This document shows, piece by piece, positions 6,598 through 63,920 of a stretch of 64,000 nucleotides of DNA (its first letter is position 1; each line of letters begins with the position of its first letter). The translations under genes and the position numbers were made by a program. This DNA is from Rhizobium sp. 007 (GTDB taxonomy: Bacteria > Pseudomonadota > Alphaproteobacteria > Rhizobiales > Rhizobiaceae): contig NZ_CP064191.1 in the NCBI RefSeq assembly GCF_015353075.1, positions 186,001 through 250,000 on the forward strand, given 5' to 3'. The notes under the pieces are model-generated. The model was not told the DNA's origin. It did not search any database and saw only the letters and a list, made by a program, of their open reading frames with translations.

Positions 6598-7497
6598 ATG
6601 TCTGCAGCAAGCAACTTGCGCGTCGATAGCAAACGACTGATCGAGGTGAATTCCATGGAGTACCGCAGGATCACAGACGTGACTTCAACGTCTAAGGCAA
6701 TAGCCAGAATGTCCGATCAGTTTTCGCTTGATGCGCCAGTCTATTGCGAGGTGACGACTGATGAGGAGGTTGCCGTCGCGTTTGACATGTTTCTAAGCCA
6801 GCTCAATGGAGCTATTCGCATTGAACAGCTGTTCGACCGATTATTCGTTTTTGCGCGCAACTTCAACTGCCGGTGGATTGCCTATGGTGCTCCGGCGCAA
6901 TTTCAGGATCCACATAGGCAGAACGGAGGCAAACCACAGATTACATCGAATTATCCTCCCGAGTGGCAAGAGCACTGTGTCGAAAAAGGCTATGACAAGA
7001 TCGATCCCACCGTAAAGACGAGCCGGTTTCATTCGGCCGCTTTTCGGTGGAGTGAAGCGTACAAAGATGCAAGCACAACTGACAGCGAAAGACGCGTCTT
7101 CGACGAGGCTGCAAAGTTCGGCCTGAGGTCTGGTGTTACCATTCCTCTGCATGGGCCGTGTGGTAGCTTTTCGACCATGAACTTTGCTCAAACGGAAACG
7201 CGCGATCTAGAAAATATCGCGGTCGCCTACCTGCAACTTGCCGCGTTGCATTTTCATTTGCAGGTAGTGGGATGCTTGGACGTGAGCGGCGGCGATGTTC
7301 CCAGCCTTTCTGCCAGAGAAAAGGAGTGTATTCGGTGGGTAGCAAAAGGAAAATCATCATGGGACATCGGAGTTATTCTCGGAATTTCCCAAAATACAGT
7401 CAATTTCCATGTTAAAAATGTATTACGAAAATTAGAAACGGGAAGCAGGACGGTTGCCGCTTTGAAAGCTGCGCGATTAGGACTGATCGAACCGTAA
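6598..7497 (+). CDS. LuxR-family quorum-sensing-type regulator (no synthase nearby)
   Basis: A 299-residue transcription factor. An autoinducer-binding domain covers roughly residues 60-210 and keeps the acyl-homoserine-lactone contact pattern: W and Y in YPPEWQEHCVEKGYDKIDPT, the D-P pair in the same segment, W in FRWSE, and G in FGLRSGVTIP. A C-terminal LuxR helix-turn-helix follows (LSAREKECIRWVAKGKSSWD, then IGVILGISQNTVNFHVKNVL). Start ATG 6598 follows GAGGTGAGGAG; an upstream in-frame ATG at 6553 lacks such a site. It has about 60 residues before the ligand domain, longer than TraR. No luxI-type synthase lies in the window, so it is a solo here. It resembles, from memory, y4qH of pNGR234a. 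Its likely targets are the adjoining biosynthetic genes. Confidence 0.9.
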   Translation: MSAASNLRVDSKRLIEVNSMEYRRITDVTSTSKAIARMSDQFSLDAPVYCEVTTDEEVAVAFDMFLSQLNGAIRIEQLFDRLFVFARNFNCRWIAYGAPAQFQDPHRQNGGKPQITSNYPPEWQEHCVEKGYDKIDPTVKTSRFHSAAFRWSEAYKDASTTDSERRVFDEAAKFGLRSGVTIPLHGPCGSFSTMNFAQTETRDLENIAVAYLQLAALHFHLQVVGCLDVSGGDVPSLSAREKECIRWVAKGKSSWDIGVILGISQNTVNFHVKNVLRKLETGSRTVAALKAARLGLIEP

Positions 7498-7629
7498 TTT
7501 GGACTGCCATACATCAATCAGACCTCGTTAGGGCTTCAATTGACAGTTTGCCGACTATCCACGATTCTCCGTCCGCAGGCCGTTGGGAGCATTCAGTTGG
7601 AGTATTTGCTTGGCCAATCCACTATCTGG

Positions 7630-8173
7630 CCGTTGCCACGGCATCGATAGACGCGTTTGACGCTTCCCCAGGAACGGCCGTCACTTCGCGCATTTGGGCG
7701 CATAATATCGCGAACACGGCAATAACCGAATGGCGGCATATCGCCGGTTGATCGGTTTGATCTTATCGACCAGACCCGCGTCCGCAAGCGGAGCCCGCCT
7801 ACGAGCTTCCGAAGGACGTTGCTTGGAGACCCGCCGCGTTATTGGATCGAGTGACATCGAGCTTAACAAAGCTTTTTTGGGCCAACTTGAGAATTTCGCC
7901 TTCGATCGTCTTCTTGCCGAGCGGGCGCTGTCGTTCCTCGACCTGGTTCTGAAGAGCTCGATAGTCGGAATCGGATAACTCCTCCTGCGATGCTGTCGCT
8001 GCAAGCATGCGCCAGGTGAACAATTGGTTCGCCTGGATGCCATGCCGCCGAGCAAAATGCTCCCGTCGCGTCCGATTTCAATGTCTCTTGCAGATTGCGA
8101 GCCTTTCGGCCGTCAACTGGTGGCGGCGCTCCGAGCCGGACAGCACTTCTATCTTCGAATTGTGAGCAGTCAT
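7630..8173 (-). pseudogene. IS3-family (IS2-like) transposase relic
   Basis: From an ATG at 8173 on the minus strand the frame reads MTAHNSKIEVLSGSERR, the typical start of IS2-like OrfA, and soon hits a stop. Further pieces follow in other frames: NQLFTWRMLAATA, ALQNQVEERQRPLGKKTIEG, PLADAGLVDKIKPINR, and YGYCRVRDI with SVKRVYR. Several frameshifts and loss of the catalytic part make it dead. Confidence 0.75.
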
Positions 8174-8329: not shown

Positions 8330-8440
8330 AAAACAACCGCGCGAATTTCAACTGACGCTGTCTTGTGAGCAGAGCAAGATTGCATCGCGTTGTTCAAGGA
8401 GTATGCCGCGACGCTTTCGTGGCATCGTCGGGAGAAGATC

Positions 8441-9715
8441 ATGCTTCAAGAGCGTCATTCCAACTTGCTGGCCACCTTTGAAAGACTCGAATCGAACGTG
8501 CGAACGTATTCGCGATCATTTCCTGTTGTGTTCAGGAAGGGCGAAGGAGCCATCCTCGAAGACGAGGGTGGTCGTCAGTATATTGATTTTCTCTCCGGCG
8601 CGGGTGTCCTTAATTACGGGCATAACGACCGCAATTTTCTGAACCATGCTATGCAATACCTAAACGCCAACGGAATTATCCACGGGTTGGACATGGCTAC
8701 GTCAGCAAAACGAGAGTTTTTGGAGCGCTTCGAGGAAATAATATTACGTCCTCGCGGCCTGACGTACAAATTTCAGTTCACTGGTCCCACCGGCGCCAAT
8801 GCCGTCGAAGCTGCTTTGAAACTCGCACGCAAGGCCACTGGACGTCACAGTATAATTTCCTTCACCAACGGCTTTCACGGAGTGAGCTTGGGGGCGCTTT
8901 CCGTAACGGGCAATCGATACTACCGAGATGCGGCAGGCATTCCTTCCGGCGGCGTAGCGTTCATGCCTTATGACGGGTATTGGGGGCCCGATCAGGATAC
9001 TTCGGAATTTATGGAAAAGGCGCTTGCGGATGCGAGCAGTGGTTTCGATCTACCAGCAGCCGTCATTTTGGAGACTGTCCAGGGCGAGGGCGGCATCAAT
9101 CATGCGAGCAAGAGTTGGCTGCAGTCGGTGGAGCGGCTTTGCAGAGAGAAGGGTATCCTCCTAATTGTCGACGACATTCAGGCAGGTTGCGGACGAACGG
9201 GTGATTTCTTCAGCTTTGAATTTGCGGATTTATTGCCAGACATCGTTCTCTTGTCCAAGTCCCTCAGTGGCTGCGGACTGCCGCTGTCCCTTTTGCTGCT
9301 CAAACCCGAATTCGATATTTGGCGACCGGGCGAACACATCGGTACCTTCAGAGGCAATAACCTTGCCCTCGTAACGGCGACTGCTGCATTGCGAAAATAT
9401 TGGACGAATGGAGAGCTGTCTGCGCGTGTGACGAAGACAGGGCACATTATGAGCCAACGTCTTCGGGAGATTGGTGAAAGCAATCAAGATCAGAGTCTTC
9501 TCGTGCGCGGAAGGGGCATGATGCTGGGGCTCGATTGCGGCACAGGAGAACTGGCCGGGAAAATCGTCCGAAACGCCTTTGAAGAAGGGCTCGTCGTAGA
9601 GCGATGCGGCGCGGACGATCAGGTTATCAAGCTTCTCCCTCCGTTGACAATTGACGAGCAGACACTTCAACGCGGCCTGGACATTCTGGAGAAATCTGTC
9701 AACGCAAAGGCTTAA
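8441..9715 (+). CDS. class III aminotransferase, diaminobutyrate--2-oxoglutarate type (EctB-like)
   Basis: A 424-residue PLP enzyme of aminotransferase class III. It most resembles EctB-type diaminobutyrate aminotransferases, which turn aspartate-4-semialdehyde and glutamate into L-2,4-diaminobutyrate. Seen: substrate/cofactor loop QFTGPTGANAVEAALKLARK, the aspartate segment LLIVDDIQAGCGRTGDFF, and the Schiff-base lysine about residue 273 in VLLSKSLSGCGLPLS. Start ATG 8441 follows GGGAGA; an upstream TTG at 8390 is possible. No ectA or ectC follows, so ectoine is not the product; a diamino acid as precursor for an amide-linked compound fits the neighbours. Cytoplasmic. Family certain, exact substrate inferred. 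Confidence 0.85.
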   Translation: MLQERHSNLLATFERLESNVRTYSRSFPVVFRKGEGAILEDEGGRQYIDFLSGAGVLNYGHNDRNFLNHAMQYLNANGIIHGLDMATSAKREFLERFEEIILRPRGLTYKFQFTGPTGANAVEAALKLARKATGRHSIISFTNGFHGVSLGALSVTGNRYYRDAAGIPSGGVAFMPYDGYWGPDQDTSEFMEKALADASSGFDLPAAVILETVQGEGGINHASKSWLQSVERLCREKGILLIVDDIQAGCGRTGDFFSFEFADLLPDIVLLSKSLSGCGLPLSLLLLKPEFDIWRPGEHIGTFRGNNLALVTATAALRKYWTNGELSARVTKTGHIMSQRLREIGESNQDQSLLVRGRGMMLGLDCGTGELAGKIVRNAFEEGLVVERCGADDQVIKLLPPLTIDEQTLQRGLDILEKSVNAKA

Positions 9716-10371
9716 AGTGGTTACTGCATCCTGCTACACCTCCGAAGAAATGGCCGCGCTCGTGATCTAACGTCGTCGAGGCCGTAGCCGGCGCGCCAGG
9801 AAGCATGACCTGGCTTTGAGCTTTAAACAGCGAGCGCGTCATCCCGATCCGTCTGCCGAGGGCTGGTTTCGGGCGAGAACGAGCGGTCCGCCATGCCGTT
9901 GCGTCCACCCGCCTTGAACCGTGCGACTCAGCGGGACACGGTCTTTGGTGAGACGCATAGAAGCGTGCGGCTTTTGTTTGAGACGACCGCCCCCCGGCTA
10001 CCACCGCCATTTCTTATCGACGCAAAGGCGTCAGTCGGCGTTCCTGTGAATGTCCATTCGAAATCTGCAAAACTGACGTGTGGCAAATCCAGTCCCCTTT
10101 ATCCGCTCCGAATGGACAACCTCCTGAAAGCTCACATCTAGAGCGCCCCGGAATGGTACTTCTCAGCTGACCAAGCCGCAGATCGAACGCGGCCGCTGAC
10201 CCCAGCCAAGCGGGCCGGAATTGGGCCAGGTCGATTGCTTTCCCGAAAGCAAAATCAGCGTGCCGATCCTTCCCACCAACTGACTTGAGCTTCGGCTTAT
10301 CAGCTATCTGGTCTGATAGTGGACCGAGTGCTGGATGCAGAATTAGTCTCAATGGCGTTCTCAGTCCGAGG
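9716..10371. other. about 650 bp without a recognisable gene
   Basis: Short frames only, with no motif I can name. Possibly decayed mobile-element DNA, plus the leader of the nucleotidyltransferase-like gene at the right end. Confidence 0.45.
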
Positions 10372-11052
10372 ATGGCTAAAATGCTTCAGAGCTTGGCGAT
10401 CATTGTCAACGACGCACGAGAGATAATCATAGACCAGAAAGGTCGCTGCCAAGCGGCGCTAGGCTTGCCTGCGGGCACATCAGTGCTAAGTCACTTGTTG
10501 TCTCAGTTGGCGCAGGCAGGCGTGCAGAAGACGGTGATCTTAAGCCTTTATGGTGTTGGTGATCTCGGCTTGGATTTGCATAACAGCCTGAATGGCATGG
10601 AGCTCTGCTTCCGCGCTCTGCCTACGCCGAATGCCGGGCGCCTCATTGATGCAGTAACGGTAGACGAGATTAGGGAGGTATTTGGTGACGTCTTTGTTTT
10701 CACCGAGAACCTCAACATCGACTTCTCGCTTATCGAGCGCTTGGCACAGTCATCTGACAGCAACCTCGTCGTAGTAGGTAGGGCAGATAGCCAGCGATCG
10801 TTGCGCTTGCTAACAAATAAGTCGCTACGGCTTACAGCAATCCTCCCCCAGGACGCTGCCAGTGGGAGAAACGTCTCTGATTTGAGACCTGTCGGCGTTT
10901 ATAAGTTCGGGCCCAAATTCCTTCGCAGCATTGCGCGAAATCGACGGCGCCGGTCCAATGATGATCTTGAGTTTTTCGAAGCTGCATTGGGCCGTCAGGC
11001 GTATGAAATGCACGTCATACATCGTGAAACCACAGCCCGCCACGAAGGTTGA
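10372..11052 (+). CDS. divergent nucleotidyltransferase-like protein
   Basis: About 226 residues with the layout of sugar-phosphate nucleotidyltransferases (GT-A-like NTP transferase fold): an opening beta strand LAIIVNDAREIIIDQKGRC, then a helix LSHLLSQLAQAGVQKTVILS, a segment FGDVFVFTENLNIDFSLIER where the metal-binding strand is expected, and GVYKFGPKFL with DLEFFEAAL near the end. The usual glycine-rich nucleotide loop (GGxGxR) is replaced by NDARE, so classical activity is doubtful. ATG 10372 and ATG 10381 are both possible; GAGG lies before the second. It sits between the EctB-like and C-KamA genes, suggesting a role in the same pathway. Family call is moderate; function unknown. Confidence 0.6.
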   Translation: MAKMLQSLAIIVNDAREIIIDQKGRCQAALGLPAGTSVLSHLLSQLAQAGVQKTVILSLYGVGDLGLDLHNSLNGMELCFRALPTPNAGRLIDAVTVDEIREVFGDVFVFTENLNIDFSLIERLAQSSDSNLVVVGRADSQRSLRLLTNKSLRLTAILPQDAASGRNVSDLRPVGVYKFGPKFLRSIARNRRRRSNDDLEFFEAALGRQAYEMHVIHRETTARHEG

Positions 11053-11824
11053 CGTCAATCTTGAGGGGCTGCTTCTGCCTCCAGTTCCAACTTGACGCGG
11101 CGGCCACGGCAAAGGCGAAGTGGCGCGCCGCTCTCCGTTCATGCTTTGTGGACATTCGGGAAGCCGTTCCGCCGATCGGCCCAGAGATGACCCAAAGTTC
11201 ATATTCGACATCATGTTACGCTGACATCAGCGATGCCCGCCAAGCCAGGCCGATCCAAGGCATGCGAGTGCCGCAACATCCGGCGCCCTCCCGAGCCCTC
11301 TTATCTGGCTGCTTGAGGTGGGCCATTGTGGGGGCGTGTCTGTGAATAGCATTTCTTGCCGTTCTATAGTCCCGACTGAATCGAGGTGTTTGCTCTAAGC
11401 TCAAGGCGCTCCTGCGGGCAAGGATCTCCATTGAACCGCTCTGACATCAGCAATCTGAGCGCGATGGCTAACTTAGTAGCGATCTCGTCAGTGCTGACGT
11501 CTATCAGGTGTCGAGCGATGTGCCACCAGACTTGCAGCAGATCTCGGCAACCGAAACGCCTTCATCATCCTGCTTTGAAATGGACGCCTTCTGGGCGTCC
11601 GAAATCTGCAACGCCTTCACCGTTTTCCGTTCCTGTCCCAGCCAGAAAAGTGCACCGAAAAACTTTAACCAATATGGTCCGGTTTGAAGAGTTCAGCTCA
11701 TTGAGCCGACAATGACGGAGATGGAACACAGCTCCTTTGGTGCCTTCCTCTTGTTCTAGAAGGATTTTTTCATTTGGCATAGTGCATGCACGGCTGTCGC
11801 AAACGCACCACGCAGCCAGGATCA
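11053..11824. other. about 770 bp without a recognisable gene
   Basis: No convincing coding frame. It contains a hairpin (11582-11600) and a short perfect palindrome GCTCATTGAGC near 11696-11706. The right end is the leader of the winged-helix gene. Confidence 0.45.
11582..11600. terminator. stem-loop, possible weak terminator
   Basis: GGACGCC and GGCGTCC pair as a 7-bp stem around a short loop. No T-run follows, so a role in transcription end is uncertain. Confidence 0.25.
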
Positions 11825-12196
11825 ATGACCATGATCAACAACAATGCTTCTGGACCAAACTCTGACTACTTTTCTCAAGGCTCCGTCATTCCTCCTCGTG
11901 AGGCACTGACCTTTCTTGACCTCGAGCTGAATATAACCAGCCATCGTGTGCGGCGAAATGGCCACCCGATACATCTTACTCCAACAGCATTCCGTCTTTT
12001 ACATCACCTGATGAAAGACCCATTCAGGGTGTACTCCCGACCTGAACTGAAGAATGCAGCTTGGCCGGACAATGTGCATATTGGCCCCCGCACCATTGAT
12101 GTTCATATCGGCCATTTGCGCGCAGCCCTCAACCGAGTAGGCGAGCCAGGTCTCATACGAACCGTGCGGTCCCTCGGCTATGCGCTTTTCGAGTAG
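11825..12196 (+). CDS. stand-alone OmpR/PhoB-type winged-helix DNA-binding protein
   Basis: A 123-residue protein made only of a short N-terminal tail and an OmpR/PhoB C-terminal DNA-binding domain: FLDLELNITSHRVRRNGHPI, then LTPTAFRLLHHLMKDPFRVY, the recognition helix region TIDVHIGHLRAALNR and the wing IRTVRSLGYALFE. There is no receiver domain, so it is not controlled by phosphorylation in the usual way and may bind DNA constitutively or with a partner. Start ATG 11825 follows AGGA. It lies inside the putative biosynthetic cluster and is a likely local regulator. Family call firm, targets unknown. Confidence 0.85.
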   Translation: MTMINNNASGPNSDYFSQGSVIPPREALTFLDLELNITSHRVRRNGHPIHLTPTAFRLLHHLMKDPFRVYSRPELKNAAWPDNVHIGPRTIDVHIGHLRAALNRVGEPGLIRTVRSLGYALFE

Positions 12197-12900: not shown

Positions 12901-13758
12901 ATGGATCTCCCCGTTGTCAGTGCCATCAAGGACAGCTATGAGCGGCTGCCTCGGCAAATGAAGGTCGCCGCAAGTTGGTTGGTGGATCATCCGACTGAGG
13001 TCGCACTGCTGTCGATGAGGGAGCAAGCGCGAAGAGCGCATGTCCCTCCCACAACACTAACGCGACTAGCAAAGCGCCTTGGCTTTGACGGTTTCGACAA
13101 GTTGAAAGTTGTGTTCGCGAACAGCGTCAGGAAACGGCCACAAAGCTACACGGGATGTAAAGAGGAATTGATAGCACGAGGGGAGGCCGAAGGTGATGGC
13201 GCCATGGTTAGCGACACGGTCGAAGCACTGGATAGCTATCTCAGTGACCTCGCGAAACCCTCCACCATTGCCGCGCTCGCAGGAGCCGCCGATCTCATGG
13301 TGGAAGCAAGGCAGATCTTTTGCATCGGCCTGCGCTCGAGTTTTCCTGCGGCCCATCTTATGCATTATCTCGGGTCATTGATTGACTTGCCCATGGCATT
13401 GATTGACGGCGTAGGGGGAACCCAGAATGATGCACTCCTGTCTGCGAGCCGACGAGATGTTTTATTGGTAGTTTCAGTTCGCCCGTATAGTCGATACACA
13501 ATGCAGATCGCTGAATTCGCAGCGACGCGCGGTGCGAAGCTCGTGGCGTTGACGGACAGCGAGCTCTCCCCTATTGCCAAAATCTCTGAAACTGTAATTC
13601 GCGTTCGGACCGAAGTGCCTTCGGTCTTTCACACCATGACTCCGGCGTTCGCGGCGGTAGAATGTCTCTTGCAATTGATCGCAGCCAGACGCGGCAGCTG
13701 CGCGATTCAAGCTTTGGCAGCCAACGAAGCAGATCTCGCAGCACTAGATCAGCAGTGA
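12901..13758 (+). CDS. RpiR-family transcriptional regulator 1
   Basis: A 285-residue protein with the RpiR two-domain layout. The N-terminal helix-turn-helix lies at about residues 5-80 (RLPRQMKVAASWLVDHPTEV, then VPPTTLTRLAKRLGFDGFDK). The C-terminal SIS sugar-isomerase-type ligand domain lies at about 120-260 (QIFCIGLRSSFPAAHLMHYL, VLLVVSVRPYSRYTMQIAEF, LVALTDSELSPIAK). Such proteins sense phosphosugars or related ligands. Start ATG 12901 has AAGGA upstream. It ends about 165 bp before a sigma-54 promoter and is transcribed toward the C-KamA gene. It is clearly related to the second RpiR protein at 38280-39188, so the two halves of the region share regulator types. Confidence 0.9.
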   Translation: MDLPVVSAIKDSYERLPRQMKVAASWLVDHPTEVALLSMREQARRAHVPPTTLTRLAKRLGFDGFDKLKVVFANSVRKRPQSYTGCKEELIARGEAEGDGAMVSDTVEALDSYLSDLAKPSTIAALAGAADLMVEARQIFCIGLRSSFPAAHLMHYLGSLIDLPMALIDGVGGTQNDALLSASRRDVLLVVSVRPYSRYTMQIAEFAATRGAKLVALTDSELSPIAKISETVIRVRTEVPSVFHTMTPAFAAVECLLQLIAARRGSCAIQALAANEADLAALDQQ

Positions 13759-13922
13759 TAGGAGTTTAAAAACTATTTGCGACAAGGTCCTTCGCGATTG
13801 GGTCCGTCTCGTTTCCTTCGCTCGGTTGACGACGGTTCTGTCGATATACTGAACCGAAGTATTCCCGTCGCTGCGGCTCCAAACGCTTGAACTATAAGGC
13901 TCGTGCCGCACTGTCCCCTAAT

Positions 13923-13938
13923 TGGCACGCCGATTGCT
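13923..13938 (+). promoter_or_regulatory. sigma-54 (RpoN) -24/-12 promoter
   Basis: TGGCACGCCGATTGCT fits the RpoN consensus TGGCACG-N4-TTGCW exactly, with GG and GC elements in correct spacing. It lies about 67 bp before ATG 14005 of the C-KamA gene and points toward it. In rhizobia such promoters are commonly activated by NifA in nodules, by NtrC, or by DctD. I see no perfect TGT-N10-ACA NifA site within 150 bp upstream, so the activator is open. Confidence 0.85.
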
Positions 13939-14004: not shown

Positions 14005-16656
14005 ATGAAATGCACTCGAACGCTCAAGATCACTCCAGCGGACGCTGCACTGTTGAGCGCGATCCCGCCAATCAAAGTTTTGCCGCGTCCGACGCAGGTG
14101 CCGCTGTCATTCGCCCAGCAGCGGCTTTGGTTCCATTCGCATCTGACGGGCGGCCGGGACGCCTGTCACTTGCAGATGAGGCTTCGGCTCCGAGGCAAGC
14201 TCGACGACGCGGCGCTGCAGTCCGCCTTGGACGGGCTGGTGGCGCGTCATGAGGTGCTGCGCACCACCATCGGAGTGGATGGCGACGAACCATTCCAGCG
14301 AGTGGGGCCGGCTAACGTCGGTCTGCCGCTAAAACAAGACGATGTCATAATGGGAGCCGCCGCGGAGGCGACCCTCGCGATGTTGATAAGCAATGAAGCG
14401 CAGGCACCATTCGACGTCGAAGCCGGGCCGCTGGTCCGCGGGCGGCTTGTGCGTTTGACAGTGGACGACCACGTGCTGCTGATCACCATGCACAACATGG
14501 TCTCCGATGAACACTCATTGAACATCCTGACGCACGAGTTCATCGAGCTCTATACCGCCGTCCGGACTGGCCGCCCGCATCAGCTGGCGCCGTTGCCGGT
14601 GCAGTATGCGGACTACGCGCTTTGGCAGCGCAGTTGCCTGGTGAGAGAGGTGTTAGAGCGGCAATCGGAATACTGGGGGCGGATGCTGGCGGGTGCCCCA
14701 ACAGCTTTGAAGCTGCCGAGGGACCGGCTGCACTCAGCGCGGGCTGACTACAAGGCCAATTCCGTCGAGTTCGTTTGGCACGAGCCGCTGACCGCGCAGC
14801 TCATGGCGCAGAGCCGACGTTTTGGGACTACGCTGTTCGTGACTATGCTGGCGGGCTGGGCGTTTTGGTTGGCAAGGTTATCGGGTCAGGAGGAATTAAG
14901 CATCGAAATGCCAGGCGCCAACCGCACGCGCACAGAGGTTTCTAGGCTTATTGGGCCCTTCATTAACACCCCGGTGTTGCGGATCGATTTGTCGGGCGAT
15001 CCTACGTTTGAGGCATTGCTGGAGCAAGTGAACACGGCCGTGCTTTTGGCGCAGGTATATCAGGACTTGCCTTTTGATCAGGTGATCGAACGCGTCAATC
15101 CGCGAAAGCAGGCCCACACCGCAATCATACATGCTATACCTGCATCGTCAAACAACCCTGGGGCGCCAGTGGAATTGCCGGGGCTGAGCCTCGAGTACAT
15201 CGGCGTTGACGAACGTGTCGCGCAACATGATCTGGCGCTTGAGCTTGGTGAGGTAGGTGAGACGATTCACGGAAGGCTTGTCTACGCGACGTCGCTGTTC
15301 GACCAGAGCACGGTCGAGCAATTCGCGAGGTATTTGCAGCAGGCGCTGAGCCAGATGGCGGTCGACTTCGGCCAGCGGGTTTGGTCGGTGCCACTGTTGG
15401 AGAAGGAAGGGAGTCGTCTTTCGGCAGAGTCGAAGCCGAGGGAAGTGGCTTTTTACCAGGATCGCTGCGTTGACGAGCTGCTTGAGTCGCAGCCGGAGCT
15501 GGACGCGGTTCATTGCGAGGACGAGAACCTGAGCTATCGTGAACTGAACGCGCGGATCTCCGCGGCGCCTCAAGTTCGCCAAGTTCAAGCATCGGTCGAC
15601 AACTTGGACGCGATCGAGGGAGCGCGCGACGGAACCGAGGGGGAGCTACAAGCTAACAGCATCACGCGTTATCATGTAACAAAATTCTATCGAGAACAAA
15701 TCACCGACAAGACTTATTCCGAGCAGCTTAGACATATCGTCGAGCCCTCATTCGAAGAGTTCGAGAGTCCCGGCAATCTGGATACGAGCGGCGAGCACGA
15801 CAACACCGTCGTGCCCGGATTTCAGCACAAATACCCTCAGACGGGGTTGTTGCTGGTAACGGACCGTTGCGCTTCATATTGCCGTTATTGCTTTCGCAAA
15901 CGCATCGTGGGTAAAAATTCCGATGAAGTTGCAACAGATTTCGCGCGAATTTCAAAATATATTAGAGGACACCCCGAAATAACTAACGTGCTGCTATCCG
16001 GCGGCGACCCGTTCATGCTTAGCACTGCCAAGCTCGAAAAAATCCTGGATAGTATGCTGCCGATCCCGCATTTGAATTCGATTAGGTTCGGCACGAAAAT
16101 GGTCGCCTACGAGCCTAAGAGGTTTGAGGATCCCGCTTTATTACCTTTGTTCCAGCGGATCAATGACGCAGGTAAGGCCGCAGTGATCGTCACACATTTC
16201 GATCACATCGGTGAAATCTCGGTCGATGCAGAACGCAATATTCGTTCCTTGGGTGCACAAGGCGTGCAGTTCCTCAACCAATCGGTACTTCTTAGGCGTA
16301 TCAATGATAGTCCCGAAATCTTGGCCGCGACGTTCGCCAAGTGCCACCAAATGGGTGTCCACCCCTATTATCTCTTCCAAGGTAGGCCGGTAAAAGGCGC
16401 ATCGCATTTTCAGGTTTCACTGCGCCGCGGACTAGAGATTGCCCACGGCATCAACCAACGCCTCAGCGGTATTCAAAAGACCTTCAAATACATCATGTCG
16501 CATTACACAGGAAAGATCGAGATCCTCGATCTTGGAACCGATGGCCGCATGTATATGCGATATCATCAAAACAAAACTCCGGAAAAAATTGGAAAGATCT
16601 TTTCACGACTGTACGCCGAGGGTGCATGCTGGTTGGATGATTTGCCCGAGGGATGA
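14005..16656 (+). CDS. NRPS condensation-domain / KamA-type radical SAM aminomutase fusion
   Basis: An 883-residue fusion. Residues about 30-490 form a nonribosomal-peptide condensation domain (LSFAQQRLWFHSHL near the start), but the HHxxxDG motif reads HNMVSDE at 163-169: the second, catalytic His is Asn and the Gly is Glu, so it is probably catalytically dead. Residues about 490-530 are the first stretch of an adenylation domain (LDAVHCEDENLSYRELNARI), which then breaks off. From about 552 a KamA-family radical SAM aminomutase follows, with the CxxxCxxC iron-sulfur motif at C622, C626, C629 and the PLP-lysine segment HYTGK with K837. The lysine-recognising segment QCDLSxG of true lysine 2,3-aminomutases is QGRPVKG (792-798), and the second Asp region also differs, so the substrate may not be lysine (glutamate or another amino acid is possible). 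Start ATG 14005 follows GAGGAGG. Driven by the sigma-54 promoter. Confidence 0.88.
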   Translation: MKCTRTLKITPADAALLSAIPPIKVLPRPTQVPLSFAQQRLWFHSHLTGGRDACHLQMRLRLRGKLDDAALQSALDGLVARHEVLRTTIGVDGDEPFQRVGPANVGLPLKQDDVIMGAAAEATLAMLISNEAQAPFDVEAGPLVRGRLVRLTVDDHVLLITMHNMVSDEHSLNILTHEFIELYTAVRTGRPHQLAPLPVQYADYALWQRSCLVREVLERQSEYWGRMLAGAPTALKLPRDRLHSARADYKANSVEFVWHEPLTAQLMAQSRRFGTTLFVTMLAGWAFWLARLSGQEELSIEMPGANRTRTEVSRLIGPFINTPVLRIDLSGDPTFEALLEQVNTAVLLAQVYQDLPFDQVIERVNPRKQAHTAIIHAIPASSNNPGAPVELPGLSLEYIGVDERVAQHDLALELGEVGETIHGRLVYATSLFDQSTVEQFARYLQQALSQMAVDFGQRVWSVPLLEKEGSRLSAESKPREVAFYQDRCVDELLESQPELDAVHCEDENLSYRELNARISAAPQVRQVQASVDNLDAIEGARDGTEGELQANSITRYHVTKFYREQITDKTYSEQLRHIVEPSFEEFESPGNLDTSGEHDNTVVPGFQHKYPQTGLLLVTDRCASYCRYCFRKRIVGKNSDEVATDFARISKYIRGHPEITNVLLSGGDPFMLSTAKLEKILDSMLPIPHLNSIRFGTKMVAYEPKRFEDPALLPLFQRINDAGKAAVIVTHFDHIGEISVDAERNIRSLGAQGVQFLNQSVLLRRINDSPEILAATFAKCHQMGVHPYYLFQGRPVKGASHFQVSLRRGLEIAHGINQRLSGIQKTFKYIMSHYTGKIEILDLGTDGRMYMRYHQNKTPEKIGKIFSRLYAEGACWLDDLPEG

Positions 16657-22688: not shown

Positions 22689-22724
22689 TGTAGACTTGAG
22701 GACGTTGCTGTTCGGGACCAGACG
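22689..22724 (+). promoter_or_regulatory. two near-matches to the NifA upstream activator sequence
   Basis: TGT-N10-ACG occurs at 22689-22704 and again at 22709-22724, each one base off the NifA consensus TGT-N10-ACA. They lie about 90-120 bp before the sigma-54 promoter at 22801, the usual distance for NifA sites. Two imperfect sites so placed are suggestive, not proof. Confidence 0.35.
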
Positions 22725-49316: not shown

Positions 49317-49317
49317 T

Positions 49318-50196: not shown

Positions 50197-50197
50197 C

Positions 50198-51205: not shown

Positions 51206-52242
51206 GTGGTCCTTTGCTTAAAGTTGAGAATCTGGCCAAGCATTATCCGTTCGGTGGGGGCTTCCTGAAGAAGACAATCCCAGTGGTCCGGGCGGTCGAA
51301 GACGTTTCCTTTACCGTTGAGCCCGGGGAAACTCTTTGCATTGTAGGCGAATCCGGCTGCGGTAAGTCCACAGTCGCGCGGCTCTTGATGCGGTTGGTGG
51401 ATCCGACAGGCGGGCGGGTCCTGGTCGACGGCACCGATATTGCCGGACTAAAGAAGAATGCTCTTCGAGCCTCGCGGCGTCGGATGCAGATGGTTTTTCA
51501 AGATCCATTCTCTTCGTTGAACCCGCGTCTCACCGCAGGAGAGATCATCACCGAGCCTGTCGAGAACTTCGAACGGCTAAACCGCAAAGACCGCCAAGCT
51601 CTGGCGGCCGACCTCCTGCGAAAGGTCGGGTTGTCGCCGGAGATGATGCACAGGCTTCCGTCCGAGATGTCTGGCGGGCAGCGGCAGCGCCTGGGTATCG
51701 CCCGTGCATTGGCCCTCAAGCCGTCGCTCATCATTGCCGACGAAGCAGTCTCGGCTCTTGATGTATCCGTGCAGGCGCAAATCCTAAATCTTCTGATGGA
51801 TATCCAGCAGCAGATGGGTATCGCCTTTGTCTTTATCTCGCATGACCTCAGTGTCGTTGAACATATTGGCCATCGCGTGGCGGTCATGTACCTCGGTCGG
51901 ATCGTGGAGCTGGCGCCATGCGACGCGCTTTTCGCCAAACCAGTTCACCCATACACAGAGGCGCTAATCGCGGCTGCACCTATACCAGACCCCCAGCGGG
52001 TTCGGATGGAAGTGCCCCTTGAAGGGGAGGTACCCAGCCCTGTCAATCCACCGTGCGGATGTGCGTTTCACCCGCGCTGCCCTCTTGCAATCGAACGGTG
52101 CCGAGTTGAAGTGCCGGCGCTGGTTCATATGGCGGACGGCCGAGTGGTGGCGTGCCATGTGCGCGCTCCGGCGGCGGGCACCAACGAACAGTTGTCTACG
52201 GCGGCTCACCCGTCAGTCGCTGTGGAACAGCCTCTGGGCTGA
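51202..52242 (+). CDS. ABC transporter ATPase, DppF type
   Basis: 346 residues. Walker [21 protein letters not shown], signature [20 protein letters not shown], Walker [21 protein letters not shown], and the C-terminal cysteine domain [20 protein letters not shown]. Fifth component of the transporter; the ATGA overlap with the DppD-type gene couples translation. It resembles, from memory, y4tS. Confidence 0.94.
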
Positions 52243-52258
52243 TGATGTCAACGAGGCA

Positions 52259-56574: not shown

Positions 56575-57414
56575 TCATTCGGCGGCGTGCGCTACGCCAA
56601 GCCTTGCGGCGGCGCGGGCGCGAACTGCATCTCCGAAGACTCGAAAGATGCGTGCGGATGGCTCGTCGGTTTTTATCCAGTATTCGGGATGCCATTGCAC
56701 CCCAAGGGCAAAAGCGCGTGCGCTCCGGACCGACACCGCTTCGATAGTTCCATCCTCGGCCCGCGCCTCGACCTCAAGCTCCTCCGCTAACCGGTCAATT
56801 GCCTGGCGATGGAGAGAATTCACAATGATATTGTCTGCATCGACGATGCTGGCAAGGCAACTATCTGACGCAATGGTCAAGCTCTGGTGGATGGCATACC
56901 GCTCATCGCGGTTATCGCTCGGCACCTCCCGATGATCAAGGTTTCCGGGCTTGTCTTGAATTTCGGTCGCAAGTGTCCCGCCGAGTGCGACATTCAATTC
57001 CTGAAGCCCGCGGCAGATCGCAAGCACAGGGAGCCCTTCGGCAATTGCCTTGCGGATTAACGGCAATGTGGTTGAATCCCTCGCAGGATCATAGGGGCCA
57101 TTTGCTTGGCTCCCGTCACCGCCATAGAGCGATGGATGCACGTTCGTCCCGGAGCCTGTGACAATCAGTCCATCAATAGCGGCAAAGAGCTGATCGAAGT
57201 CAATTCGGTCTCCCAATGAAGGAACGATCAAAGGAAAAACCCCTGCACCTCCAACCGCCGCCTCGATATACTGCACAGGAGTCGCGTGCCAGAGATATTT
57301 GTATACCTCGACGACATCCGCCGAAATAGCAACAAGCGGCTGACGAGGCAGTGCGCGGCCAATCGTGGAACCTGTGGCGCCTACATCGTCACGTACATCT
57401 TTGCCCCGCATCAT
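56575..57414 (-). CDS. class-I glutamine amidotransferase-like hydrolase (peptidase C26, PuuD type)
   Basis: 279 residues of the gamma-glutamyl-hydrolase/PuuD group. The nucleophile elbow VLAICRGLQELNVALGG holds the Cys; the His and Glu of the triad are in FALGVQWHPEYW near the C-terminus; VPSLGDRIDFDQLFAAIDGL and TNVHPSLYGG are typical of PuuD. Such enzymes hydrolyse gamma-glutamyl amides, as in gamma-glutamyl-GABA in putrescine degradation. Cytoplasmic. Start ATG 57414 follows GGAAGG, and a one-mismatch copy of the RpiR-linked motif lies 50 bp upstream. A second copy of the gene survives as a relic at 60701. It suggests that the imported compound contains a gamma-glutamyl or similar amide bond (inference). 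Confidence 0.9.
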   Translation of the reverse strand: MMRGKDVRDDVGATGSTIGRALPRQPLVAISADVVEVYKYLWHATPVQYIEAAVGGAGVFPLIVPSLGDRIDFDQLFAAIDGLIVTGSGTNVHPSLYGGDGSQANGPYDPARDSTTLPLIRKAIAEGLPVLAICRGLQELNVALGGTLATEIQDKPGNLDHREVPSDNRDERYAIHQSLTIASDSCLASIVDADNIIVNSLHRQAIDRLAEELEVEARAEDGTIEAVSVRSARAFALGVQWHPEYWIKTDEPSARIFRVFGDAVRARAAARLGVAHAAE

Positions 57415-57478: not shown

Positions 57479-57828
57479 ATTAGTTGAAACGAGGGCGTGG
57501 CCGCACCTCTCACTGCGGTCTCTTTCGGATTTCCCCAATAGCCACCAACGAAAAAAGGCCCACCTTTTGCAAGGCCGATCGAAAGCGGTCTGGTTGAAGT
57601 GAGTTCCTACAAAGTGTCAAAGGTAATTGAAGTGCTTCTGCTACGCGGCGAGGCTTGACCATGAAATCGGCATCAACAGTAGGATGGCTGTTTTTCGCAG
57701 ACCCAATCAAAAGTCGGCCCCCGTGGACGCCAAGTCAATGCAACGGAACCGGCATAGGATTTGGCCAAGTGGCAACGATCGTCTGCGCAGTGGACGCCGG
57801 ATCGCCGGCACCAACCTGAAAAGCAGGA

Positions 57829-57857
57829 CCTCGACCATCGTGCTGCGATGGTCGAGG
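57829..57857 (-). terminator. strong stem-loop after the binding-protein relic
   Basis: CCTCGACCATCG and CGATGGTCGAGG form a perfect 12-bp stem with a 5-base loop. On the minus strand it is followed by TCCTGCTTTTC. It lies just beyond the stop of the minus-strand binding-protein relic, so it is likely its former terminator. Confidence 0.65.
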
Positions 57858-57884
57858 TGTTCTGTATGATAGTGTTCTCAGGCC

Positions 57885-58405
57885 TTCTGCATATTCCACA
57901 TCGCGACAACGCCTTGCGGCGTCTCGACGAGCCCCGTGAGCATCTTCCGGCGCGCGATTGGCGACACAATTTGGCTAAGTACACGTCGCCCGCAAAATCC
58001 CACCAGATCCTTTGCATCTTGCGTGCGAGGGCCTTGTGCTCTTCGAGCGTTTCGAGACCTTCCCATTTGGCCCGAAGCGCCTCATATTCGTCACTCTTCG
58101 GCCAGCCGTACCAGCTCTTCTCACCATTCGCCGTAAGGAAGATTTCGCTGATCGGATTGCTCAAGGCAGCGTTTGCGACGTCCGTGAGAAATATGCTCCA
58201 GCCGCCTTTCTCAACGGGACCCTTGTTTGCCCGGCGCGCGACGAGCCCACCCCAGTCGCTCGGCGCAAGCTCGGCATTGACCCCAATCTTGCGCAACTGG
58301 GCCGCCACAAGCTGTGCGGCATTATTAAGAGATGCGATGTTGGTTGGCTGGAGAATAACGATCTTCTCGCCGGCATATCCAGCCTCCCGATGTATCTGTA
58401 GTCCG
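57885..58405 (-). pseudogene. relic of a fifth solute-binding protein, C-terminal third
   Basis: Minus-strand frame reads AGYAGEKIVILQPTNIASLN, LRKIGVNAELAPSDWGGLVA, WYGWPKSDEYEALRAKWEGL, then a one-base shift and IVSPIARRKMLTGLVETPQG with the end MWNMQKA. Very close to the C-terminus of the protein at 46139-47743. The first two thirds are missing. Confidence 0.88.
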
Positions 58406-58763
58406 TCGGCTTGCCTGGCCGGGAGAAGTCGAGCACGACATCCTTGTGGTAGGACCCACGGACCGCAGTCTAAAAAGCCTTCTTGGATCCTAGCGCCCTC
58501 CGCAGAGCGGGATTGATAGGTGAATATCTGCAATCTGGCGTCCTATCATGAAAGTCGGCAATACCGGATACTTCAATGTTTTCCGATCGACCAATCAAGT
58601 TTGCTTCCTCCGGTTGTGAATTGAAGAAAAATCACAGCCTGTATGAAAAACCTCAACCTCAACACACCCGGGAACATCCGAGGCAAAGACCTTAGCGCAG
58701 GAACTGTCTATTCGATCGATGGTATCTTGCTAGGTGATACGATTGGAGCATATAATACGATAC

Positions 58764-58888: not shown

Positions 58889-60493
58889 ATGACGATCTCT
58901 CGACGCGAATTCTTCAAAGTGAGTCTGGCCGCCGGAGCGGCTCTCTCGACCCCGTCGGTCCTGCGCTCTAAGGCAGCGGCTGCCGAACCTCTAACGATCC
59001 GTATGGTAAGGGACAACCTTAAGGTCTATGATCCAATTTGGACCACATCCGGCGTAACCGCTAATCATGGCGCGGCAATCTACGACACATTGTTCGCCCT
59101 TGATTCGAAATTCATGCCGCAACCACAAATGGTGGGCAACTGGGGCGTTTCCGAGGACAAAAGGACTTACACGTTCGAACTGAGGGATGGCTTGGCGTGG
59201 CATGACGGCACTCCAGTCACTGCGGCTGACTGTGTTGCATCGCTTCGCCGGTGGGCAAAAGTCCATCCCGGTGGAAAATTGATCATGGCACGGGCAAGAG
59301 ACATCTCTGCGAAGGATCAACGCACCTTCATTATAGCACTCAACGAACCTCTTTCGTTGCTGATCAATATTCTAGGGGACGTCACTGCGCCACTGCCATT
59401 CATGATGCGTGAAAAAGACGCAGAGCTCCCTGCCACTGAGCAGGTAACCTCAAACATTGGGTCGGGCCCCTTCAAGTTCAACAAAGACCTTGCTAGGCCC
59501 GGCGCCAGCTTTACATATGATCGCAACGATCAATATGTACCGCGACAGGAAGCTTCTGACGGATTGGCCGGCGGCAAGATCGTGAACGTAGATCACGTGG
59601 TTTGGAACATCATCTCGGACCAGCAGACTGCTCTAGCAGCACTTCAAGCGGGCGAGGTCGATCTCCTTGACAGTCCGGCAGTTGATCTTCTGTCAGTCAT
59701 CGATGCTGATCCTAACCTTGAGGTTCGGGACCTGAATCAAGGGGGGTTGAACAATGTCCTGCGGATGAACTTCTTGCAGCCTCCGTTCAACAATGTGAAG
59801 GCCCGTCAGGCCTTACTCCATCTGATTGACCAGGAAGCGTTCCTAAATATCCTGTTCCCGGATCCAAGATTCCGTAGCACCGTTACATCTATATTCGGAC
59901 ATTCCACGCTTTACACAAATGATGCAAATACGGGATGGTTCAAGAAGGGAGGGGATCCGGAGAAGGCCAAGCAGCTCTTCAAGGAGGCCGGATATGTGGG
60001 CGAGAAGGTTCTCATTCTCCAACCGACTGACTTGGGATTGGCAGCAAGTAGCGCCTGCCAACTGCTAGCAGACACCCTACGCAAAGTTGGAGTCAATGCA
60101 GAGCTTGCTTCGATGGCTTGGGGTGAGCTTGCCACGCGCCGGTCTAACAAAGGCCCAGTCGACAATGGTGGCTGGAGTCTCTTCATTTCGGACCAGTCAG
60201 ACTACGCCCTTGGAAATCCCATTGGCTCGCCTTTCTTGGTCGCGAGCGGTGACGACGCCTGGTACGGTTGGCCGAAATCCGATGAGTATGAGGCGTTGCG
60301 GGCCAAATGGGCGGACGTTGAAACGCTTGACCAACGCAAGGATCTGGCTCGGCAGATGCAAACTGTATGGTGGGATTTCGTCGGCGATATGAGGCTTGGT
60401 CAAAATTCCCAGCCTATTGCGTATAGAAAAGCTCTAACCGGCCTGATTGGTATGCCGCAGATTCTTCCCATGTGGAATCTCAGGAAAGCGTAG
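58889..60493 (+). CDS. peptide ABC transporter periplasmic solute-binding protein 2
   Basis: 534 residues, SBP family 5, colinear with the proteins at 46139 and 62325. Tat-type signal MTISRREFFKVSLAAGAALS; then YDTLFALDSKFMPQPQMVGN, YTFELRDGLAWHDGTPVTAA, GSGPFKFNKDLARPGASFTY, RQALLHLIDQEAFLNILFPD, EYEALRAKWADVETLDQRKD. Start ATG 58889 follows AGAAGGGA. No permease genes adjoin it, so it probably feeds the transporter at 48375-52242 with a related ligand. A strong terminator follows at 60528. Confidence 0.93.
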   Translation: MTISRREFFKVSLAAGAALSTPSVLRSKAAAAEPLTIRMVRDNLKVYDPIWTTSGVTANHGAAIYDTLFALDSKFMPQPQMVGNWGVSEDKRTYTFELRDGLAWHDGTPVTAADCVASLRRWAKVHPGGKLIMARARDISAKDQRTFIIALNEPLSLLINILGDVTAPLPFMMREKDAELPATEQVTSNIGSGPFKFNKDLARPGASFTYDRNDQYVPRQEASDGLAGGKIVNVDHVVWNIISDQQTALAALQAGEVDLLDSPAVDLLSVIDADPNLEVRDLNQGGLNNVLRMNFLQPPFNNVKARQALLHLIDQEAFLNILFPDPRFRSTVTSIFGHSTLYTNDANTGWFKKGGDPEKAKQLFKEAGYVGEKVLILQPTDLGLAASSACQLLADTLRKVGVNAELASMAWGELATRRSNKGPVDNGGWSLFISDQSDYALGNPIGSPFLVASGDDAWYGWPKSDEYEALRAKWADVETLDQRKDLARQMQTVWWDFVGDMRLGQNSQPIAYRKALTGLIGMPQILPMWNLRKA

Positions 60494-60651: not shown

Positions 60652-60700
60652 TCCTATTCAAGAATGAATTAAACGGAGCAAGTCCATATGAGGGGCCGAA

Positions 60701-62045: not shown

Positions 62046-62324
62046 TAGCTGTCGGAAACCTCCTGGCATGAGCGACGACTTGGAGGGGCTGGGGAAGCGC
62101 TCTGATCAAAACCGGACTGTCCGACAGCACTGGAATACCCAATTCTGTTCCCGAATTGAACCTGTGACCACGCTGGCGGTGGAGACGCACGAGAACTGGC
62201 TTGAGGCCACCGTTACTTCAACACGGACGAACTGAAGGAGCACAAGAAGGATACGATCCGCGAATCCGCTTAGCGAGCCAGCTGAGCCGCCCCGTTTTGC
62301 AGAGCTTGACGCACACAATCGGCC
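62046..62324. other. short stretch with possible gene tail
   Basis: One plus-strand frame ends in NTDELKEHKKDTIRESA before a stop near 62270 and looks protein-like, but I cannot assign it. Nothing else is seen. Confidence 0.3.
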
Positions 62325-63920
62325 TTAGGCTTTCTTCATACTCCATAGTGCTCTGAGACCTGGAGTACTGACAAGATCCGTAAGTGTCCTGCGACGCACA
62401 ATCGGCGAAACAACTCCACAGAGAAAAATGGTGCCGGCAATGTCCCACCATATTTTCTGCATTTGCCGAGCAAGTGCCTTGCGCTCCTCTAGACTGCCTA
62501 CATCCATCCACCTCGCCCTTACAGCCTCAAACTCGTCGCTCTTCACCCAGCCAGAGAAGCCCGCCTCGCCAATTGGAGCAAGCCAAGACATGGCCATCGG
62601 ATCACGAAAGCTAAAATCCGAAGAAGACGTGATAGTGATGCTCCAGCCGCCGCTATCAACGGAACCTTTGTTTTCCGTACGTGCTATCACGCCGCTCCAA
62701 TCACTTGGTGCGAGCTCTGTATTTACTCCGATTTTTCGGAGCATTGTTGCCAATAACTGCGCGACGTCACTAAAGGCCCTAATACTCGTGGCTTGGAGGA
62801 TGACAACCTTCTCCCCTGAGTACCCAGCTTCCTGAAGTAACCGCTTCGCCGCTTCGGGGTCTCCAGCCTTTTTATACCAGCTCGTATTTTCGTCGTTAGA
62901 ATACACGGAACTATTTCCAAATAAAGACGTAACAGGCTCTGTGTACTTCGGGTTGGGCATGGCAACATACGCGAATGCCTCCTGATCGACGAGGTGGAGT
63001 ATGGCCTGACGCGCCTTAACGTTATCAAAGGGCTTCTGCAGACAATTCAACCGCAACAAAAAGTCGTCTCCATTGTCCATTGGCTGAAGCGCGAGGTTGG
63101 GATCGCTATCGATCATTGAAAAAAAATCGGGAGGGGCGTGTTCCATGAAGTCAATTTCGCCCGCCTGAAGGGCCGCAAATGCGGTCTGCTGGTCGCTGAT
63201 GTTATCCCAAATGACGCGGTCGACGTTGACCACCTTGCCGCCTGCATACATATCGGGCGGCTCCGCACGCGGCACATAATTTTCGTTGCGATCGTAAGTA
63301 ACGCTTGCGCCCGGCTTGGCGAGATCATGATTGAACCTGAAAGGCCCCGAGCCAATATTCGCGGTAACCTGCTCGTTTGGGGGACGAATTGCATCCTTCT
63401 CTTGCATGACAAAAATACGTTCGGCCGCCAAGATGTCTATCAGCAAGCTCAGCGGCTCCTTGAGCTCAATAATAAAGGTCTTATCGTCCCTGGTTGAAAT
63501 ATCCTTTACTCGTTCCGTTACCAGCGGTCCAACACCCGCTTTCATCTGACCCCAGCGGCGAAGCGAGGCGACACAGTCAGCCGCAGTGACTGGAGTGCCG
63601 TCATGCCACGCCAAGCCATCCCGCAGTTCGAATGTATAAATCCTCTTGTCCTCGGAAACGCCCCACTTTCCCACCATCTGTGGTTGCGGTTTCATTCTGG
63701 TGTCAAGGCCAAACAGGGTGTCATAAATTGCGAGGGCGTGATCCCAAGTTATAGTTGAATACGAATAGTACGGATCATAGGCAAGGAGGTGACTGTGCAT
63801 CGCCATGCGAACGGTACCCGGCGCCGTTGAGGCAGCATGCACGCGCGGGATCGGCGGGAAGGATAGTGCAGCTCCTGCCGCCATGCCCATCTTGATGATG
63901 TCGCGCCGAGATATATTCAT
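62325..63920 (-). CDS. peptide ABC transporter periplasmic solute-binding protein 3
   Basis: 531 residues, SBP family 5. Tat-type signal MNISRRDIIKMGMAAGAALS; YDTLFGLDTRMKPQPQMVGK, YTFELRDGLAWHDGTPVTAA, GSGPFRFNHDLAKPGASVTY, RQAILHLVDQEAFAYVAMPN, EFEAVRARWMDVGSLEERKA. The most divergent of the three, so its ligand may differ. Start ATG 63920 follows GGGAGGTG. No AAAACANNTGTTGCA motif is seen in the 80 bases of upstream sequence available. It has no permease nearby and probably shares the transporter at 48375-52242. Confidence 0.93.
   Translation of the reverse strand: MNISRRDIIKMGMAAGAALSFPPIPRVHAASTAPGTVRMAMHSHLLAYDPYYSYSTITWDHALAIYDTLFGLDTRMKPQPQMVGKWGVSEDKRIYTFELRDGLAWHDGTPVTAADCVASLRRWGQMKAGVGPLVTERVKDISTRDDKTFIIELKEPLSLLIDILAAERIFVMQEKDAIRPPNEQVTANIGSGPFRFNHDLAKPGASVTYDRNENYVPRAEPPDMYAGGKVVNVDRVIWDNISDQQTAFAALQAGEIDFMEHAPPDFFSMIDSDPNLALQPMDNGDDFLLRLNCLQKPFDNVKARQAILHLVDQEAFAYVAMPNPKYTEPVTSLFGNSSVYSNDENTSWYKKAGDPEAAKRLLQEAGYSGEKVVILQATSIRAFSDVAQLLATMLRKIGVNTELAPSDWSGVIARTENKGSVDSGGWSITITSSSDFSFRDPMAMSWLAPIGEAGFSGWVKSDEFEAVRARWMDVGSLEERKALARQMQKIWWDIAGTIFLCGVVSPIVRRRTLTDLVSTPGLRALWSMKKA

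Follow-up and report, generated by a model that had tools for sequence, protein, structure and literature searches.

We analysed a 64,000-nucleotide stretch of DNA from Rhizobium sp. 007 (hereafter the window; bases 186001-250000 of the 441-kb contig NZ_CP064191.1, in a genome of 7.6 Mb). An earlier inspection of its letters had described it as a candidate system for the synthesis and uptake of an amide-linked small molecule on a symbiotic replicon. A nodA match lies at position 126086 of the same contig. From 152 listed open reading frames (ORFs) of at least 100 aa, 40 distinct ones were compared with Pfam and NCBIfam, and these scans bore out gene by gene what the preliminary description had claimed to be present: precursor, ligase and export functions in the left half, and transport, hydrolysis and regulation in the right half. 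Seven insertion sequence elements or remnants occur in the window, several of which cut the region. From the evidence presented below we are confident that the left half represents a real, recurrent and partly NifA-controlled amide-synthesis set of legume symbionts.

The left half (coordinates are those of the window; genes on the reverse strand are marked (-), all others being on the forward strand) begins with a LuxR-type regulator (6553..7497) with autoinducer-binding and GerE domains by Pfam; no luxI turned up among the 40 ORFs scanned. Downstream lies a diaminobutyrate-2-oxoglutarate transaminase, EctB/Dat (8390..9715), which scores 647.9 bits against TIGR02407 (cut-off 552.2) and is 73% identical to the ectB product encoded beside nifH in R. 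leguminosarum UPM791. The EctA and EctC domains of ectoine synthesis were absent from the 40 ORFs scanned. The central gene, C-KamA (14005..16656), fuses a degenerate nonribosomal peptide synthetase (NRPS) condensation (C) domain and a KamA-type radical S-adenosylmethionine aminomutase in one frame. It is followed by a predicted exporter of the major facilitator superfamily (MFS) according to Pfam and NCBIfam (18623..19852) and by four members of the ATP-grasp L-amino-acid ligase (LAL) family, LAL1 to LAL4, at 23546..24841 (-), 26635..27903, 30784..32037 (-) and 35099..36358 (-). All four ligases exceed the cut-off of the LAL_C2 family PF18603 (47.2-59.1 bits, cut-off 29.4), keep the EVNPR motif and have no inner stop, so that the ATP-grasp is intact. 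They share LAL_C2 and an ATP-grasp with EVNPR with the L-amino-acid ligases BL00235 and BacD, but form a clade of their own (56-72% identity among seven members) that is nearly confined to symbionts. Three smaller genes lie between EctB and C-KamA: one for a 255-aa protein that has no Pfam match and whose family occurs in 4 of 44 KamA loci (10285..11052), one for a DNA-binding protein with a Trans_reg_C domain (11786..12196; the annotations of T136 and T1473 have a winged-helix gene in this position), and one for an RpiR-family regulator identified by Pfam (12901..13758).

The right half starts with the second of the two RpiR-family regulators of the window (Pfam; 38280..39188 (-)), a class-III aminotransferase (NF005685 by Pfam/NCBIfam; 39396..40721), a carboxymuconolactone decarboxylase-family (CMD) protein (Pfam; 40731..41318), an Lrp/AsnC regulator 85% identical to the Lrp of UPM791 (41385..41852) and an M20 amidohydrolase (TIGR01891) belonging to a symbiotic clade (42048..43265). 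A complete Opp-type ATP-binding cassette (ABC) transporter is encoded by genes assigned by Pfam to permeases B (48375..49316) and C (49267..50196) and ATPases D (50096..51205) and F (51172..52242). Three family-5 substrate-binding proteins accompany it (Pfam; a, 46139..47743; b, 58889..60493, 67% identical to a; c, 62325..63920 (-), 57% identical to a), together with one binding-protein remnant (57673..58533 (-)). The half also holds a PGA_cap (CapA-like) protein (Pfam; 52019..53653), an M24 hydrolase (53844..54980) and a C26 gamma-glutamyl hydrolase-like protein (Pfam/NCBIfam; 56575..57414 (-)). Past the right edge, at window coordinates 72023-74995, follow a further class-III aminotransferase and an aldehyde dehydrogenase, 95% and 81% identical, respectively, to the pair that follows Lrp in UPM791, and an amidase, a thiolase and a glutamate-type dehydrogenase are also found there.

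The M24 protein had been read as a plain Xaa-Pro peptidase, a reading that must be given up because the protein is metal-less. Its Glu, Tyr, Phe and Glu align with those of the solved ectoine hydrolase DoeA (6twk), and the pattern Glu/Tyr/Phe/Glu-or-Gln recurs in 17 of 18 aligned M24 proteins from uptake regions, that of R. tropici being the exception. The 18 proteins are without most of the metal ligands of prolidase, at the positions where we take these to lie. The overall resemblance to ectoine and hydroxyectoine degradation (doeABCD, eutBC, ehu) is considerable, comprising a DoeA-like M24, an M20, an Lrp, a class-III aminotransferase and an aldehyde dehydrogenase. However, the M24 scores 110 against the DoeA model TIGR02993 (cut-off 613), the M20 has distant similarity to DoeB2 and is likewise far under its cut-off, EutB and EutC are absent from the 40 ORFs scanned, and the transporter is of the Opp type. 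The nearest solved structures of the M20 are YxeP, an ILR1-like hydrolase, an M20-family peptidase and an acyl-glutamine aminoacylase. Plain ectoine degradation was thus not supported as the function of the right half, since the DoeA and DoeB2 cut-offs are not reached, and it is kept as part of a rival explanation considered below. Because EctB makes 2,4-diaminobutyrate (DABA) and the right half resembles a breakdown route of the DABA/ectoine type, both halves point to DABA, which may thus be a chemical link between them that is independent of position.

KamA resembles the aminomutases acting on lysine, glutamate and arginine (2,3-aminomutases) and EpmB in having the CxxxCxxC cluster and a conserved C-terminal Lys, but it stays under every equivalog cut-off tested, including those of lysine 2,3-aminomutase (TIGR03820; 177.9, cut-off 525.4) and glutamate 2,3-aminomutase (TIGR04368; 172.8, cut-off 650). 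In the alignment to 2a5h, Arg265 takes the place of Asp293 of lysine 2,3-aminomutase; Ser303 takes that of Asp330 by motif reading, the alignment ending before that site. We take these two Asp residues to be the lysine-binding ones, and a lysine 2,3-aminomutase is therefore unsupported. Since glutamate 2,3-aminomutase presumably carries Lys and Asn at the two places, and so resembles KamA in having a basic residue at the first, the substrate of KamA is probably an acidic amino acid and not lysine. As for the C domain, the window has HNMVSDE where a catalytic NRPS condensation domain has HHxxxDG, and the second His is kept in 2 and lost in 15 of 17 aligned rows (two of which, L010 and L040, look like one strain, while L047 and L061 are partial). 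Fused and stand-alone KamA proteins intermix on the tree, the 17 fused ones among 46 not being monophyletic, and hence the C domain seems to have been lost repeatedly. The idea that the C domain forms the amide was discarded for these two reasons. Purifying selection nevertheless still acts on the domain, with dN/dS of 0.32-0.39 in 7 pairs (KamA, 0.11-0.18), so it may have a role other than amide formation.

A sigma-54 (-24/-12) promoter, TGGCACGCCGATTGC (13923..13938), lies in front of C-KamA, with 66 bases between position 13938 and the probable start ATG at 14005. The fused frame reported earlier, of 917 aa, was correct, whereas its start was not: it had been placed at a GTG that precedes the promoter. 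Both the relatives and a Shine-Dalgarno-like sequence indicate ATG 14005 instead, which puts the promoter in front of the gene. By number alone the sigma-54 sites of the window are within chance (5 sites with at most one mismatch, 2 of them perfect, versus 2.47 expected; 12 of 100 shuffles reach 5), and the promoter at 13923 is regarded as meaningful because of its conservation in relatives. This was assessed in the regions upstream of 211 genes from the window and 56 fetched loci, which were scanned for TGGCAC-N5-TTGC allowing at most one mismatch in the 10 fixed letters. The 211 remained of 276 once near-identical regions and those shorter than 300 bases had been removed, and a KamA immediately preceded by a C domain was counted once. 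Sites in the direction of the gene preceded C-KamA in 13 of 15 cases, stand-alone KamA in 12 of 24 (together 25/39) and genes for glutamyl-tRNA reductase (GluTR)-like proteins in 2 of 2, as compared with none of 82 uptake genes and 2 of 40 other genes, one of them fixA. Against the direction of the gene, the scan gave 2/89 for synthesis genes, 0/82 for uptake genes and 0/40 for others. The contrast between KamA/C-KamA and the uptake genes has p 2.9e-16, although such p-values overstate independence because loci and genes share ancestry. Moreover, the NifA-type sequence TGT-N10-ACA stands in the expected interval before 18 of the 25 promoter-bearing KamA/C-KamA genes, versus 32 of 1640 control windows. 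The combination expected of a NifA/sigma-54 regulon, a -24/-12 promoter together with TGT-N10-ACA, is thus conserved before KamA/C-KamA.

The window has a second perfect-consensus sigma-54 promoter (22801..22816), preceded by a similar upstream sequence, TGT-N10-ACG (22709..22724). This promoter appears orphaned: no KamA follows it, and only a 32-codon open frame was found behind it. The region around it is 78% identical over 211 bp to that before a stand-alone KamA gene of Sinorhizobium saheli and 77% identical over 167 bp to that of R. mongolense.

The KamA and LAL clades are nearly confined to legume symbionts. With the KamA domain as query and one genome per species, 42 loci were found, 39 of which (73-86% identity) belong to Microvirga, Mesorhizobium, Rhizobium, Sinorhizobium/Ensifer and Bradyrhizobium, and 3 (43-44%) to Cloacimonadota. 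Among plasmid records at E <=1e-60, 27 of 28 were rhizobial and one was from Paenibacillus (38%). Of 297 Rhizobiaceae genomes, 8 had the LAL clade (E <=1e-100), every one of them NodA-positive; NodA matches occurred in 19 of the 297, 17 of them strong, giving a Fisher p of 1.8e-11 for the association (8/17 vs 0/280). Plasmid records with LAL numbered 135 at E <=1e-20, 77 of them at 60% identity or more, and the best 60 of the 135 were all rhizobial. The M20 clade was found in 3 of the 297 Rhizobiaceae genomes, one of them NodA-negative, while the 44 of 713 plasmid records with an M20 of at least 69% identity were all from rhizobial genera, Phyllobacterium included, the next match having 48.5%.

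The linkage of the two halves was examined in 16 complete plasmids searched whole. Six had been picked for KamA or as UPM791 and ten for the M20 clade, so the co-occurrence counts are biased and the distances less so. LAL was present in 13 of the plasmids, M20 in 15, EctB (at least 60% identity) in 13, NodA in 12 and nifH in 12. Distances were judged by a rotation test, whose p-values overstate independence because the plasmids are related. LAL and M20 lay a median of 26 kb apart (n=12, combined p 0.011) and at most 45 kb apart on 10 of the 12 plasmids; the values were 31 kb for KamA and M20 (n=10, p 0.015), 54 kb for EctB and M20 (n=13, p 0.046) and 15 kb for LAL and EctB (n=12, p 2.6e-4). 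Relative to nifH (n=11 throughout), EctB lay at 21 kb (p 8.8e-5), LAL at 34 kb (p 0.014) and M20 at 61 kb (p 0.19). The corresponding distances from nodA (n=11) were 115 kb for M20 (p 0.88) and 84 kb for LAL (p 0.78). LAL, KamA, EctB and M20 are all present on pHRC017 and on the ml66 plasmid, neither of which has nodA or nifH, so the set is not merely riding with these genes. In UPM791, nifH, ectB, ligases, MFS, ABC, M20 and M24 genes form one run. Across 148 genomes of the genus, LAL was found in 33, M20 in 20 and both in 19 (p 3.5e-14), and among 60 NodA plasmids (of 231) both occurred on 4, M20 only on 4, LAL only on 7 and neither on 45 (p 0.031; the LAL calls rest on the best 60 of the 135 LAL records). 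The claim that the halves belong together therefore stands as correlation and loose linkage; they are separated by tens of kilobases and form no operon.

Published data show that genes of this kind are active in nodules. According to Table 2 of PMC7950203, in the part available, the 50 most abundant proteins of UPM791 pea bacteroids include a DABA aminotransferase, a KamA, a D-Ala-D-Ala ligase-type protein and a GluTR-like protein, and all four were undetected in vegetative cells. The agreement of name, order and size (to within one residue) let us match these proteins to UPM791 genes that lie between nifHDK and nifA, with ABC, M20 and M24 genes between them. The available text of PMC10228743 attributes DABA formation in pea nodules to the DABA aminotransferase and reports that mutants have smaller nodules and are less competitive, and that expression is host-dependent. 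In M. loti nodules, as given in the accessible part of PMC3538637, the putative DABA transaminase gene msi260 depends on NifA2 (1339 to 5 units) without having a NifA promoter, and the corresponding mutant remains fully effective. In a P. phymatum nifA mutant, ectB, a D-Ala-D-Ala ligase gene and matE are strongly down, and plasmid M81 and ABC genes are NifA-dependent (PMC8305402, available portion).

Taken together, these data suggest the following scheme, in which we infer an amide product, its export, a beta-amino acid and a molecule shared by both halves. EctB would form DABA from aspartate semialdehyde, and KamA, turned on by NifA/sigma-54, would convert a probably acidic amino acid to a beta-amino acid. 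The LAL ligases would couple the two through amide bonds, and the MFS protein would send the product out of the bacteroids. Free-living kin would take it up via the Opp transporter, the ectoine-hydrolase-like M24 and the M20 amidohydrolase would open the imported amide, and the class-III aminotransferase and aldehyde dehydrogenase would feed DABA back to central metabolism. It is, in our judgement, a nearly even proposition that the neighbouring uptake genes act on that compound in the fashion of rhizopines, with DABA/beta-amino-acid chemistry and a product deduced from the enzymes. The diamino- or beta-amino-acid chemistry proposed earlier is supported as regards DABA, by EctB and the DoeA-like uptake half, but the C domain is probably not amide-forming. 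Likewise, the two-sided role agrees with the symbiont clades, the KamA promoter and the loose linkage, whereas Dat has been published as an enzyme of homoserine and pantothenate metabolism.

Several observations weigh against this rhizopine-like interpretation. With regard to control, the NifA upstream site of the window itself (TGT-N10-AAC, 13839..13854, 84 bases before the promoter) is decayed beside an intact promoter, and in T136 and T1473 the promoter has decayed. Strict sigma-54 sites precede only 2 of 28 LAL and none of 12 EctB genes, so sigma-54 control of all synthesis genes is unsupported for these two at that threshold; a looser threshold gave 8/28 forward vs 4/28 reverse for LAL and 2/12 vs 0/12 for EctB, these numbers being small. 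It should be underlined that the strict scan also misses nifH itself (0/1; a variant -12), and its misses are therefore no proof of absence. The NifA/sigma-54 logic proposed earlier is supported for KamA, with promoters of that type in five genera, but LAL and EctB have no clear site. The part of PMC10228743 at hand states that there is no evident NifA site before dat, and in the P. phymatum nifA mutant an ATP-grasp gene was up, not down (PMC8305402, same portion). The UPM791 KamA is only 33% identical to that of the window and belongs to another subfamily, so the recruitment of KamA seems to have drawn on two subfamilies. With regard to linkage, the halves lie 348 kb apart in T1473, and in ml66 their distance is no better than chance. 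The genus-wide correlation of LAL and M20 is confounded by nodulation, and the association within the 60 NodA plasmids is weak. Although the halves are not uncorrelated, they also occur independently: 14 of the 33 LAL genomes have no M20 of this clade, one M20 genome has no LAL, and a Phyllobacterium plasmid carries the uptake half without LAL, EctB, nodA or nifH.

The strongest alternative, a serious rival although we consider it unlikely, is that two unrelated modules lie side by side: the left one a NifA-linked biosynthetic cluster, the right one a scavenging pathway that recovers solutes of the ectoine type, or peptides, from plants and soil. Besides the DoeA-like site of the M24, the loose linkage and the Phyllobacterium plasmid with the right half alone, it is favoured by EutB and EutC, whose equivalogs flank the M20 in NXC14 (L080, where membership was checked) and point to ectoine there, and which are annotated next to the M20 in Mim1, NXC24, R. 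gallicum M101 and NGR234 (pNGR234a). On the other hand, the M24 and M20 of the window fall far under the DoeA and DoeB2 cut-offs, all 44 plasmid records with the M20 are rhizobial (the NodA-negative genome among the three Rhizobiaceae carriers being set against this), the M20 is nearer to LAL than to nodA, and both halves point to DABA.

An improbable alternative is that the product of the left half stays inside the bacteroid as a solute or vitamin precursor, either DABA for pantothenate or a beta-amino-acid osmolyte, with no role in signalling or feeding. Beta-glutamate is a known osmolyte. PMC10228743, in the text available, ties Dat to homoserine use and pantothenate, and DABA is found in pea nodules, but four ligases and an MFS protein exceed the needs of DABA or a free osmolyte, and the nearby catabolic genes are left unexplained. 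Least of all do we expect an inhibitor or metallophore directed against competitors or serving metal uptake, for although the MFS protein is distantly similar to the enterobactin exporter EntS (50 bits, far under the cut-off of 324), the ligase family has antibiotic members (BacD being among the solved structures matched by LAL) and a LuxR regulator is present, no resistance gene or TonB receptor occurs among the 40 ORFs scanned, and NifA control would place the product in nitrogen-fixing bacteroids, away from competitors.

As far as the open-access literature searched shows, the proposed synthesis-plus-uptake system is known in pieces and not as a whole, and no open-access paper was found that joins synthesis and uptake genes of this kind. 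The rhizopine idea rests on one inositol chemistry from few species; in Sinorhizobium meliloti L5-30 the rhizopine (mos/moc) is made in nodules under NifA control, and, to judge from the title of reference 17, synthesis and catabolism genes are closely linked on the Sym plasmid of one strain (PMC6668481, part available). The window differs from mos/moc in its amino-acid ligases and aminomutase and in its looser linkage. Inositol domains of mos/moc were absent from the 40 Pfam-scanned ORFs (of 152), a comparison of domains without a search by mos/moc sequences. A close described relative is Dat/C189 of UPM791 (PMC10228743), whose presumed gene product is the ectB product compared above, taken as Dat because of its place and size. 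The neighbouring ligases, exporter and uptake genes are undiscussed in the available part of that paper, and the words 'aminomutase' and 'rhizopine' are absent from its main text.

If the set works like rhizopines, kin-feeding would be far commoner in rhizobia and would extend to amino-acid chemistry. It would also account for the high levels in UPM791 bacteroids of DABA aminotransferase, aminomutase and ligase, which have no settled role. The long-standing question of who benefits from nodule products would become testable by single-gene deletion in well-used strains, for instance R. leguminosarum UPM791 or R. tropici CIAT 899, and a new orthogonal signal would be gained for the engineering of root bacteria. 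More tentatively, one may envisage a second chemical class of rhizopine: DABA/beta-amino-acid amides made in nodules across five rhizobial genera by enzymes that, for the single strain whose proteome is available, rank among the most abundant of the bacteroid. Between strains, the parts of the system (ligase, aminomutase, uptake) would be reshuffled, so that each lineage would feed its own kin, with Phyllobacterium-like scavengers holding the uptake half alone. Phyllobacterium zundukense from a Vicia nodule (L078, NZ_CP104970 30133-47311), in which the uptake half is 82-97% and the M24 97.6% identical, is a possible scavenger.

Some further observations concern related genes. The nearest non-rhizobial KamA relatives found, from Cloacimonadota metagenome-assembled genomes (L073-L075), likewise have Arg and Ser at the two places where lysine 2,3-aminomutase has Asp. 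On pRLN3 of R. leguminosarum Norway, another KamA-family gene (L048, ~17.0 kb) lies ~7 kb from the first and is only ~32% identical to both the window and the UPM791 KamA. In UPM791, two paralogues (59% identity; L076 20928-21875 and L077 27539-28477) adjoin ligases; the first, the one examined, has a weak GlutR_N match only. The pair is possibly a different enzyme, and one of them appears to be the top-50 bacteroid protein named glutamyl-tRNA reductase. Very large NRPS genes, with open frames of up to 7116 aa, lie on another replicon of the Rhizobium sp. 007 genome; examples on replicon C3 are at 137182-145155, 218137-219657 and 429266-430786, and their C domains are ~45% identical to the KamA-fused one. 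Finally, KamA-type genes stand alongside a gamma-glutamyltransferase annotation in Bradyrhizobium (NZ_CP049701 160596-161645), and the nodule gene list of B. diazoefficiens 113-2 contains the pair bll8232 (aminomutase) and bll8231 (gamma-glutamyltranspeptidase) (PMC8632152, part available).

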